A DNA stretch of 5,971 bases from Deltaproteobacteria bacterium RIFOXYA12_FULL_61_11 (GTDB taxonomy: Bacteria; Bdellovibrionota_F; JAHFAK01; YA12-FULL-61-11). Positions 582-4,400 of this stretch are shown one piece after another. The notes beneath the pieces were generated by a model that worked only from the letters and a program-made list of their open reading frames with translations, did no database searches and was not told the DNA's origin. The position numbers and the translations under genes were made by a program. The first letter of the stretch is position 1; every line of letters begins with the position of its first letter. Location: the NCBI GenBank assembly GCA_001799195.1, contig MGSU01000277.1, positions 1 through 5,971 of the forward strand. Direction: 5' to 3'.

Positions 582-1778
582 CTACGAAGGAATCCCGACC
601 GTCGTCAGGCGCGCGTGTCGCTCGGCAAAGGTCGCCGCAAGGGCTTCCAGGGACTCGCAATCGTCGGCTCCCGGTAACCCCTTGCACAGTACCGGGGGGA
701 GGACCTCGAGCTTGAGGTTGGGGATCATCGCCGCGAGCTGTTCGACCATTTTACCGCCCCAACCATAGGACCCGAGGACCGAGAGGAAGCGCGCTTTCGG
801 GCGGAGTAGATTGGCGAGATAGGCGGCATAGGCTGCCTTGGGATGCGGCCCTCCGAGTACGACCGGAGTACCGATCACGATGGAGGCGGCGTCGACGAGG
901 AGCATGGCCAGTTTGCCGAGGTCGGGATCGGTCAGGTCGAACTGCTCGACGCGCATGCCCCGGCGGATGCAGGCTTCGACGAAGACCTCGACCATGCGCC
1001 GGGTGCTGGCGTGCATCGAAAGATACGGCACCACGATCAGGTTGTGAGGCGGAGCGGTCAACCATTCCCGATAGGCCTCGAGGATGAACTCGGGTCGCTC
1101 GTAGATCGGTCCGTGACTGGGGGCGATGTAGGCAGGCCGTAAGCCGGTGAGCCGTTCGAGGCGCTTCTCGATCAAGTTCCTGAAAGGCATCATGATCTCG
1201 GCATAGTACCGTTTCGCACCGAGGAGGACCCCGGCGTCTTCCCCGGCGAACAGCTCACTCGTGGCGAGGTGCGAGCCGAACAGATCGCAGGTGAAGAGGA
1301 TGCGCCGTTCTGGCAACCAGGTCACCATCGTCTCCGGCCAGTGTACCCAGGGGAAGTGGAGGAATTCCAGGGTCAGGCCTCCCAGGTTGAGGCGTTCGCC
1401 GTCCCGGACCGCTCGTATTCGCTCCGCGGGAACGCCGAGGTGGTCCACCAACATGGTCTTGCCCTTCTCCGTCGCCAGCACCGTGGTTTCAGGGTGGGCC
1501 GCCAGGACAAGGGGAATTGCGCCCGAATGGTCTTGTTCGGCATGGTGGGCGACGAGGAAATCGATATGTTCCGCCCCAGCGTGGGCGAGGCGAGCCGACA
1601 AGATCTGGGCGCAGGCCGGGTCGACCGTGTCCAGCAAGGCAGTTCCAGAGGACCCGCGTACCAGGTAGGCATTGTAACTCGTGCCGTCCGGGAGTGGAAT
1701 CAAGGCGTCGAACAGCCTTCTGTCCCAGTCTATCGCACCAACCCAGTCGACGCTCTCCACAACCCTGCGCGCTTGCAT
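582..1778 (-). CDS. Class A flavodiiron protein (FprA/ROO type O2 or NO reductase)
   Basis: Cytoplasmic enzyme that reduces O2 to water, or NO to N2O, with electrons usually delivered by rubredoxin or a similar carrier. At 398 residues it has the normal length of a class A member: a beta-lactamase-like diiron domain (about 1-240) followed by a flavodoxin-like FMN domain (about 245-390), with no C-terminal rubredoxin or reductase extension. All expected diiron ligands are present: H79, E81 and D83 in HAEQDH, H146 in VHWPETM, D165 in LFTCDLFG and H222 in APSHGP. The first five fall at the same residue numbers as in Desulfovibrio gigas ROO. The FMN domain shows PYLSMHASTRRM (251-262) and GSYGWGG (336-342). 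The ATG at 1778 has a strong AGGAGG eight bases upstream. The J-domain gene ends 63 bases upstream and the exporter starts 46 bases downstream, so this is probably the middle of an operon. O2 versus NO preference cannot be read from the sequence. Confidence 0.96.
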   Translation of the reverse strand: MQARRVVESVDWVGAIDWDRRLFDALIPLPDGTSYNAYLVRGSSGTALLDTVDPACAQILSARLAHAGAEHIDFLVAHHAEQDHSGAIPLVLAAHPETTVLATEKGKTMLVDHLGVPAERIRAVRDGERLNLGGLTLEFLHFPWVHWPETMVTWLPERRILFTCDLFGSHLATSELFAGEDAGVLLGAKRYYAEIMMPFRNLIEKRLERLTGLRPAYIAPSHGPIYERPEFILEAYREWLTAPPHNLIVVPYLSMHASTRRMVEVFVEACIRRGMRVEQFDLTDPDLGKLAMLLVDAASIVIGTPVVLGGPHPKAAYAAYLANLLRPKARFLSVLGSYGWGGKMVEQLAAMIPNLKLEVLPPVLCKGLPGADDCESLEALAATFAERHARLTTVGIPS

Positions 1779-1841: not shown

Positions 1842-3296
1842 TCAGGCAGCCCCGTGCAATTCTTCCCTGGCTTCCTTGCATTCCGGGTCGTGCTTGAGCG
1901 CTTTCTGGTAGTAAAGCCGCGAGAGCATGGGATTATTGCGGACCTTGAACAAGCGGCCGAGAAAGAGATGGACGGACGGAGGAGCCGAGGCCTCCCGGGC
2001 CAGACGTTCCAACCGGTCGAGGCTCTCCTGGGCCGTCTCGGGTTGTTCCTCGCTCTTGACCATGTACTGGCAGTAGAGCAGATGGGCCTCGAAGTCGCGC
2101 TCCTCGGGATAGCAATCCCGGGCACGTTGGAACGAGGTCATGGCCCGTTTGTAGTTCTTGCGCAAGAGATGTCGTTGCCCGTCGGCGTAGTGTTGTTCGG
2201 CCTCCATGACCCCTTGGACGAAATCCTCGACGCTCTTGCCCGATTGCTTGAGTTCGAGATGCAACTTGTACTCGTAGATCTTCTCGTCCGAGCTGAGCCG
2301 GTGAAAGGCTTCGGTGATACGGGCGAAATAATCCTCGAGGTGACGCTTGTATCCAATCGCGACCCGGGAGTTGTAGAGATCGGGATGGTATTCGCGGACG
2401 AGTTCCAAATAGACGCGTTTCACCTCGACCGCATTGGCTTTGGAAGTGATGCCGAGGACTTCGAAGTAGTTCTCGTTATCGATGGTTCCGAGCTTCTGAT
2501 GAGTTTTCTCAACTTTCTCCATGAGTTCCCGCTCGTGAGCCGACAACTCATAGTCCAGGACCTGCAGTTCGATGAGCAGATAGAGAAGCGCATTCAGGAT
2601 GTTGTGGTATTTGTTCTCCTTCTCGGGCAAGACCGCGGCAAGCAGACTGGGGGTCTTGAACCGCAGACAGAGGCTCCGGATCATGTCGTTGAGTTTTTCG
2701 TTCCTGGTCTGGGGTACGGTCGCCCGGCGGAAACTGAACGTGTGCTCCCGCAGTCCCTCGAGGACCTCGAGGACTTCTTTCTCGGGGAGGTATTCGAGGA
2801 TGACCTTGAGAAAACTCTCGAACGCGGAGATCAACTCGAACTTCTCGGCCGGTTCGATCGGTGGCACCTGGTCGAGAAGCTCTATCTGGAAAGCGCCACC
2901 GCTGAACAGGAAACAACTCAGGTAGCGCAAGCGGAGCAGCTCTTGATAGTGTTTTTCGAGTTGCGAGGTGGGGAGGGCGCCAAGCCGACGAACGGTGTCG
3001 AATTCGTTGCCCCCCTTGGTCTTGAGCAGGAGACAAACCTGCTCGTTTTGCGGTTTGGTCAGGACGTTTCGTTTCCAGAGGTAGTGGGCGAAACGCTCTT
3101 CGGGTTTTTCCGAGTACAAGGTAAGGAGTGAGCGCTCGTGGAAGATCAGTTGTTTTCGCAGGTTGAAATCGGTGAGGGTGAGCCGGAAGGTGCCGGAGCG
3201 GCGGAGGAGTATATCGATGAGTTTGAAGGCCGAAAAATGATCGAGACTGCCCCGGTGCGGGAGTTCGTCGTCACGACTGAGGGCACTGAACTTCAT
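1842..3296 (-). CDS. DUF4388 - J-domain - TPR protein
   Basis: Probable cytoplasmic co-chaperone or regulatory scaffold of unknown target. With the ATG at 3296 it has 484 residues. Residues about 16-140 look like a DUF4388 (PATAN-type) domain, starting RGSLDHFSAFKLIDILLRRSG, a family found in regulatory and gliding-related proteins. A helical, charged middle part (about 150-270) is unassigned. A J-domain follows (about 276-344: NYFEVLGI, then EYHPDLY, then ITEAFHRLSSDEKIYEY). Its HPD triad, needed to stimulate DnaK ATPase, is intact at 304-306. The C-terminal 120 residues look like TPR helices (YADGQRHLLRKNYKRAMTSF, LGRLFKVRNNPMLSRLYYQK). A GTG at 3323 would add nine residues, but it lies only about 11 bases from the predicted transcript start and has no ribosome site. 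The ATG has GGTGATC, complementary to the 16S 3' tail, in register. No glycine-rich or zinc domain of classical DnaJ is present. It is the first gene of the likely operon. Confidence 0.85.
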   Translation of the reverse strand: MKFSALSRDDELPHRGSLDHFSAFKLIDILLRRSGTFRLTLTDFNLRKQLIFHERSLLTLYSEKPEERFAHYLWKRNVLTKPQNEQVCLLLKTKGGNEFDTVRRLGALPTSQLEKHYQELLRLRYLSCFLFSGGAFQIELLDQVPPIEPAEKFELISAFESFLKVILEYLPEKEVLEVLEGLREHTFSFRRATVPQTRNEKLNDMIRSLCLRFKTPSLLAAVLPEKENKYHNILNALLYLLIELQVLDYELSAHERELMEKVEKTHQKLGTIDNENYFEVLGITSKANAVEVKRVYLELVREYHPDLYNSRVAIGYKRHLEDYFARITEAFHRLSSDEKIYEYKLHLELKQSGKSVEDFVQGVMEAEQHYADGQRHLLRKNYKRAMTSFQRARDCYPEERDFEAHLLYCQYMVKSEEQPETAQESLDRLERLAREASAPPSVHLFLGRLFKVRNNPMLSRLYYQKALKHDPECKEAREELHGAA

Positions 3297-3298
3297 GC

Positions 3299-3305
3299 GA
3301 TCACC
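3299..3305 (-). promoter_or_regulatory. Extended anti-16S match that decides the J-domain gene start
   Basis: GGTGATC ends two bases before the ATG at 3296. It lacks the usual AGGAGG core, but it is the exact complement of 16S 3'-tail bases GAUCACC. It sits where the GGTGATC part of the full complement AGGAGGTGATC would sit at normal spacing. This favours the ATG at 3296 over the GTG at 3323. Confidence 0.5.
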
Positions 3306-3333
3306 GGCCTGGCTGGCGGGCACCAGAAAAAAA

Positions 3334-3370
3334 TCAGGCTAAGTATTGGAAGTCCGATCGCTTTTGTCAA
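3334..3370 (-). promoter_or_regulatory. Sigma70-type promoter of the J-domain/flavodiiron/exporter unit
   Basis: Reading the minus strand, a consensus -35 box TTGACA (3370-3365) is separated by exactly 17 bases from a -10 box AATACT (3347-3342, four of six consensus bases). Seven and eight bases downstream of the -10 box come G (3335) and A (3334), followed by seven T (3333-3327). Transcription starting there gives a leader of about 38 bases to the ATG at 3296. No other promoter of this quality is visible in the intergenic region. The boxes are seen directly; activity is inferred. Confidence 0.75.
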
Positions 3371-3377
3371 TGGGAAA

Positions 3378-3389
3378 GCGTGAGGCTTG
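3378..3389. repeat. 12-base direct repeat, copy 1
   Basis: GCGTGAGGCTTG on the plus strand. It is identical to 3546-3557, and its core GAGGCTTGG also occurs at 3537-3545. This copy lies just upstream of the -35 box of the minus-strand promoter, at a distance where an activator or repressor could bind. Significance unknown. Confidence 0.5.
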
Positions 3390-3459
3390 GTAACTCTTCA
3401 GTTTTAACGAGGTAAGGGGTCCTGTCACCTCTCACCCCCACCATGCTCATCCTTGCGCG

Positions 3460-3478
3460 TGGCGGGGGACCCCCGTCG
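3460..3478 (-). other. GC-rich hairpin in the intergenic region
   Basis: A GGGGG/CCCCC inverted repeat around position 3469 extends outwards through C-G and G-C pairs and two G-T wobbles, giving a stem of seven to eight pairs with a three- to five-base loop. It lies about 100 bases after the TcdA stop codon. No T-run follows on either strand, so it is at best an atypical terminator or an RNA-stabilising structure. Confidence 0.35.
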
Positions 3479-3513
3479 GTGCCACCCCAATGCGGTGACG
3501 AACAACCTACAAT

Positions 3514-3563
3514 CCACCCCAAGACTGAAGGAATACGAGGCTTGGGCGTGAGGCTTGAGGTGG
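3514..3563 (-). other. Long-loop inverted repeat after the tcdA stop
   Basis: On the minus strand CCACCTCAAG (3563-3554) can pair with CTTGGGGTGG (3523-3514): ten pairs including one G-T, around a 30-base loop. It begins 16 bases after the TcdA stop codon and could contribute to transcript termination. The loop is long and the downstream T content is modest, so I regard it as tentative. Confidence 0.25.
3546..3557. repeat. 12-base direct repeat, copy 2 (with a core copy at 3537-3545)
   Basis: GCGTGAGGCTTG again, 168 bases from copy 1. The shorter core GAGGCTTGG at 3537-3545 lies 13 bases from the matching core of this copy. The repeats bracket most of the intergenic region. They could be operator half-sites, or the direct repeats of a small decayed insertion. 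Confidence 0.45.
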
Positions 3564-3578: not shown

Positions 3579-4400
3579 CTATGGTTCAAGGTTCGCATGG
3601 CCCTTGCCGTTGCCATCTGGTGTGCAGCGCAGCCCCTGGGGGCGCAGCTCTCCGAGGATGAGACGCAGGCATTCGCTCGCGGCAAGCAAGCCGAAAACCG
3701 CCGTCACGGTCATCAAGGTGCCGTTGACCGCCCGTTCGCGTCCGCGTTGTACCGAGGGTTCTTGGTCGAGGGCGCTATCCAGGGAATGCCACGGTAAGGA
3801 GGCTCTGCCGGGCAATTCATGGGAATGCACGCAACGGATGCCGTTGTGGATACCGCGGGCGGAGAGCCTCTTGCGCACGAACCTTGCCAACCTGCAGTTC
3901 TTGGTCTCGCTGAGATCTCCTACCCGGACCATGGTCGGGTCGATCTTGTTCGCCGCGCCCATCGAGGACACATGGGCCTGACCTCGGCGGTGCAAGGCGC
4001 AGAGCAAGGAAATCTTCGGTCCCAGGCTGTCGATGGCATCGATCACGACGTCGGGCCGCAGGTCGAGGTACCGCTCCACCGAGGTGCCGTCGAGGAAATC
4101 GACCACGGCCTCGACCATGGCTGCCGGGTTGATGTCGAGTACCCGTTCTCTGGCCACCTGGGCTTTCTCCCGACCCAGGGTACTGCTCGTGGCCAGGATC
4201 TGCCGATTGAAGTTGCTGGCTTGGATGCGATCACAATCGACTAGGTAGAAGCGTCCGATGCCGCTGCGAGCCAGGGTTTCCAGGCACATCCCCCCAACCG
4301 CGCCCAGGCCGAACAACAACACCGAACTGTGTTGCAGGGTTTCCACGGCTTCGTTGCCGAGGATCAAACGAGTACGCGCGCTGCTGGCGGGATCGATCAT
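3579..4400 (-). CDS. tcdA: TcdA-like tRNA threonylcarbamoyladenosine dehydratase (E1/ThiF superfamily)
   Basis: Predicted to use ATP to activate and cyclise the t6A modification at tRNA position 37, giving cyclic t6A, which improves decoding of ANN codons. The 273 residues form one E1-like fold. The nucleotide-binding loop is GLGAVG (31-36). An acidic patch DCD (55-57) is followed by SNFNRQ (62-67). K79 and the DAIDSLGPK segment (121-129) complete the adenylation site. MGAANKIDPT (147-156) and VNGTLMTVTAVFGLLAASE (225-243) are typical of the TcdA (YgdL/CsdL) branch. The CxxC zinc pairs and C-terminal additions of MoeB/ThiF are absent. The segment that commonly reads T-x-x-DPLA is T-K-N-CRLA here. 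The ATG at 4400 overlaps the TatD stop as ATGA, and GAGG (4411-4414) lies ten bases upstream, so translation is probably coupled. No CsdA/CsdE partner genes are in the window. Confidence 0.9.
   Translation of the reverse strand: MIDPASSARTRLILGNEAVETLQHSSVLLFGLGAVGGMCLETLARSGIGRFYLVDCDRIQASNFNRQILATSSTLGREKAQVARERVLDINPAAMVEAVVDFLDGTSVERYLDLRPDVVIDAIDSLGPKISLLCALHRRGQAHVSSMGAANKIDPTMVRVGDLSETKNCRLARFVRKRLSARGIHNGIRCVHSHELPGRASLPWHSLDSALDQEPSVQRGRERAVNGTLMTVTAVFGLLAASECLRLILGELRPQGLRCTPDGNGKGHANLEP

Follow-up and report, generated by a model that had tools for sequence, protein, structure and literature searches.

The locus described here raises the question of whether a promoter in front of a J-domain gene, found in a stretch of DNA of 5,971 nucleotides that was analysed as a whole (the window), responds to UTP in the way of the E. 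coli codBA and upp promoters, or whether its run of T residues is incidental. The codBA promoter is said to combine UTP-dependent start switching with reiterative transcription, as Qi and Turnbough reportedly described in 1995, and the upp promoter of E. coli was reportedly treated by Tu and Turnbough in 1997. The genes that follow the promoter in the window had been read in the first-pass annotation as an operon for a J-domain protein, a flavodiiron protein and an exporter. Matches to Pfam and NCBIfam bear out the first two, whereas the fragment taken for an exporter matched no family (Table 1). Judging from the family matches of the three genes, the unit contains no pyrimidine gene. Upstream, and in the same direction, lie the genes of a TPR protein, a TatD nuclease and a ThiF/TcdA-like protein, with the stop codon of the ThiF-family gene at 3579. 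As to the J-domain protein itself, its J-domain is central, its N-terminal region has no Pfam match and its C-terminal part is TPR-like.

Table 1. Features of the promoter region and of the adjoining genes, in window coordinates.
Feature	Position	Strand	Detail
Third gene, 5' part, cut by the contig end	2..535	(-)	matched no family
Flavodiiron protein gene, ODP/metallo-beta-lactamase fold	582..1778	(-)	NCBIfam flavorubredoxin-like, below curated cut-off
J-domain gene, 484 aa, DnaJ domain at residues 276-343	1842..3296	(-)	Pfam/NCBIfam
GGTGATC, before ATG 3296	3299..3305	(-)	matches extended anti-Shine-Dalgarno complement; putative function, inferred
T7 tract, +3..+9 with G = +1	3327..3333	(-)	sequence
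Inferred alternative start bases G3335 (base 7 after -10) and A3334 (base 8)	3334..3335	(-)	codBA register
-10 element AATACT	3342..3347	(-)	4/6 consensus, 17-bp spacer to -35
-35 element TTGACA	3365..3370	(-)	6/6 consensus
Target-site duplication CAAGCCTC, promoter side	3382..3389	(-)	8 bp
MITE-like dispersed repeat with terminal inverted repeats	3390..3536	(-)	147 bp; about 71 core copies in genome
Target-site duplication CAAGCCTC, far side	3537..3544	(-)	8 bp

Read on the minus strand, the region runs TTGACA-17 bp-AATACT-TAGCCT-G-A-TTTTTTT-CTGG..., and this layout is established. In particular, a coordinate check confirmed the arrangement proposed at first reading, that is, a -10 element AATACT followed by G and A at bases 7 and 8 and then by seven T. 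A consensus scan of the 6-kb window for sigma-70-like sites returned TTGACA/AATACT only, at 10/12, where 0.7 sites are expected at 9/12 or better. As the site is the only one in 6 kb, scores 10/12 and stands at the correct spacing to the ATG of the J-domain gene (3296-3294, 39 nt past G3335), it was taken as the promoter. The presence of a real promoter at this position is very probable, and it is predicted to be of the native sigma-70 type, with transcription starting at G3335 and/or A3334. Specifically, purines are present among the start positions 6-8 after the -10 element, as far as the sequence tells, and the T-run placed directly after the GA start is uninterrupted and exceeds six residues. 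GTG 3323 was considered as an alternative start codon and rejected, as it lies only 12 nt past the presumed transcription start and has no ribosome site.

When the promoter region was searched against its own genome, at least 40 matches were obtained, owing to a dispersed repeat that ends before the promoter. Side-by-side comparison of 30 copies defined its inverted ends as TTCAGTCTTGG...CCAAGACTGAA, to which a further 7 nt belong at either end (GTATNCC / GGNWTAC), with many copies ending GTATNCC.../...GGGTTAC. The repeat is about 147 bp in length; some copies reach about 202 bp, this longer version having about 54 nt inserted internally (contigs C3, C64 and C101). Direct repeats of about 8 bp are found at a fixed distance from the ends in about ten other copies. 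The element is thus short, present in many copies, bounded by terminal inverted repeats and flanked by a target-site duplication, as expected of a MITE or insertion-derived repeat, and the window copy is a MITE-like insertion located between the ThiF-family gene and the promoter. A reading in which the dispersed repeat itself includes the promoter and the T-run was discarded, since the repeat ends before both. Its edge lies at -55 relative to the inferred start, and the -35 element, the -10 element and the T-run are therefore native sequence.

IS66-type MITEs have an 8-bp duplication and ends of the GTAA kind, which the ends of this repeat presumably resemble. The window element is like them in its 8-bp target duplication, its GTATNCC.../...GGGTTAC ends and its size of 147 bp. 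However, no parent IS66 with the same ends was found beside the IS66 transposase matches of this incomplete genome, and an assignment to the IS66-type MITEs is withheld for this reason.

How often such a start region would arise by chance was estimated on the 93-nt leader. Among 5,000 dinucleotide shuffles, 0.24% reached a site of 10/12 or better and 6.4% contained a T7 run at any position, and none of the 5,000 combined a promoter with a following R-T6. With the leader represented by a first-order Markov model, the probability of GA-T6 in either register, 6/7 or 7/8, is 5.8e-4, and it falls to 9e-5 if the model is built without the T7. T7 runs themselves occur at 0.024 per kb and strand in 103 kb sampled from this genome. 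Altogether, the rarity of the GA-T tract per promoter is about 1e-5 to 6e-4. The genome has perhaps two thousand promoters by our own estimate, and with this number about 0.2 to 1 GA-T tracts are expected per genome, a figure to be read for a GA-T7 site chosen post hoc, after reading of the sequence. As the genome holds thousands of promoters, a single codBA-type start could be due to chance.

The whole genome was scanned with the pattern TTGA-N(19-21)-ANNNT-N(4-8)-R-T6, the reversed pattern serving as control, and four sites were obtained, including that of the window, against one for the control. Two of the other three lie antisense within long open frames. The third, at C112:13873-13914 on the minus strand, reads TTGAGA-18-AATAGT-ATTGT-G-T6 and is a weaker candidate of the same kind; it shortly precedes a 340-codon open frame, which has a lipoprotein-like internal start. 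A strong promoter in front of a recognised nucleotide gene is not among these three sites. With four sites against one, the scan does not point to a promoter class, and it leaves room for chance. A simpler search for GATTTTTTT found 34 occurrences in the genome versus 8 for the reversed control. Of these contexts, 30 were inspected; they are mostly coding-like by eye and share no promoter context, and the excess was consequently rejected as evidence for a promoter class.

With regard to pyrimidine genes, no T-run of five or more residues was found in the 140 bp before the transcarbamoylase-family gene of contig C43, the one transcarbamoylase with a readable start. A second transcarbamoylase and the UPRTase-family matches gave no clear gene start, and the latter were left out as a upp control, the better one lying in a 320-codon frame of uncertain upp identity. 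Since the genome is 87% complete and carA was not detected in it, its pyrimidine genes are sampled in part, and the counter-evidence to a lineage that uses T-run starts for such genes is weak. Among the 59 nearest genomes (one in the same class, none at a lower rank), no ortholog of the J-domain protein was found; the best matches have 23-30% identity, and the upstream regions of these homologues are too distant for promoter comparison. A scan that covered 84,980 species with one genome each gave no ortholog either and yielded one relative, at 23%. Several other lineages have distant homologues, at 23-30% identity.

The reading that we prefer, with a probability of about 0.62, is that of a native promoter of the J-domain/flavodiiron unit, with incidental stuttering in the T7 tract and a MITE-like insertion upstream. 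RNA polymerase would start at G3335 and/or A3334, and the seven T would let it stutter somewhat from the A3334 start, as at many homopolymer-start promoters. The stuttering would most likely be incidental, with no selected UTP switch, and the MITE-like element would set the promoter apart from the preceding TPR-TatD-ThiF cluster. The repeat and its target duplication are established; start sites, stuttering and the absence of a regulatory role are what we infer. Some stuttering from A3334, to which we give even odds, is a fair prediction because an A start and an 8-bp spacing favour it (Han and Turnbough 2014, as reported in PMC6245113), because the run is unbroken, as is required for slippage, a process seen with polymerases of all domains of life (PMC6245113), and because reiteration affects up to 15% of starts in Streptococcus agalactiae, where nucleotide genes are enriched among the affected ones without being the only ones (PMC4448216). 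That such stuttering is incidental is most likely given the lack of a promoter class in the genome, the C43 gene without a T-run, the commonness of start stuttering where it has been sought and the non-pyrimidine genes downstream. Against this stand the low probability of GA-T6 or longer per promoter (at most 5.8e-4) and the base-exact codBA match, which a selected switch would explain, and the partial sampling of pyrimidine genes (87% completeness, carA not found).

Such a selected switch, of the true codBA type, would make the unit rise when pyrimidines are short: at high UTP, polymerase would start at A3334, stutter in the T-tract and release AUUUUn, and at low UTP it would start at G3335 and escape. 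The exact codBA register, the seven T and the combination of a perfect -35 with a non-consensus -10 all speak in its favour, as do the A start and 8-bp spacing, which promote stuttering, and the behaviour of carAB P1, where single breaks in the T-run abolish stuttering (PMC6245113). Nevertheless, a second clear case was not found in the genome, the J-domain/flavodiiron unit is devoid of nucleotide genes and the chance expectation per genome is not far below one; we regard the switch as quite unlikely, UTP control of this unit being suggested by the layout and unsupported beyond it. Its extended form, in which an under-sampled bacterial lineage would have adopted a codBA-type switch so that a J-domain/flavodiiron stress unit rises at pyrimidine shortage, is slightly less probable still. 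If true, it would mean that nucleotide-pool sensing via start-site stuttering extends beyond nucleotide-metabolism genes and well-studied bacteria, the mechanism requiring RNA polymerase and the promoter alone.

The opposite possibility is that the T-run does no more than make the start region easy to melt, notable stuttering being absent, either because the main start lies elsewhere, for example at T3336, or because the polymerase of this organism slips little on T7. The start is predicted from sequence, and coding runs show selection against slippage chiefly at a length of about nine bases, in an organism-dependent manner (PMC1088944), both in line with this reading; however, G7 and A8 are purines at the usual start positions and codBA stutters with only six T, which makes it unlikely. 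A regulatory role of the repeat, which can hold together with the preferred reading, is similarly doubtful. The insertion would have brought or displaced an UP-element or an activator site, or would fold into a structure that blocks read-through coming from the ThiF-family gene, and the edge at -55 with its 8-bp duplication and an RNA fold of -57 kcal/mol are compatible with such a role. Yet this fold is not clearly better than that of shuffled sequences (z -1.3), the repeat has no Rfam match, a scan found no terminator-like site within it on the minus strand, and the -35, the -10 and the T-run are all outside the element.

One of the close parallels is pervasive start-site reiteration, for example in S. 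agalactiae (PMC4448216), which likewise involves a homopolymer at the start and affects all gene classes, mostly without known function; there the starts were mapped by dRNA-seq, whereas in the window they are predicted. In terms of layout, the E. coli codBA and upp regions, taken from the MG1655 (K-12) record, allow a base-by-base comparison. Known members of the codBA/upp type drive pyrimidine salvage or synthesis genes, which are absent under the window promoter, although their presence is not a mechanistic requirement. The upp gene, itself one of pyrimidine salvage, is preceded by TATAATCCGTCGATTTTTTTTG, with G6 and A7 after the -10 and then eight T: GA followed by a long T-run recurs in the window, but the upp register is one base closer to the -10. 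In front of codB stands TAGAATGCGGCGGATTTTTTGG, with G7 and A8 after the -10 and then six T, so that the register is identical to that of the window and the T-run is one residue shorter; the window differs in its -35 and -10 elements and in the non-pyrimidine genes downstream, and is known here from its DNA layout. The layout that had been held common to codBA and upp is accordingly matched exactly by the former and missed by one base by the latter. With the register exact for codBA and one base off for upp, the window resembles codBA and, slightly less, upp, and its promoter can be described as a well-formed candidate of the known codBA kind.
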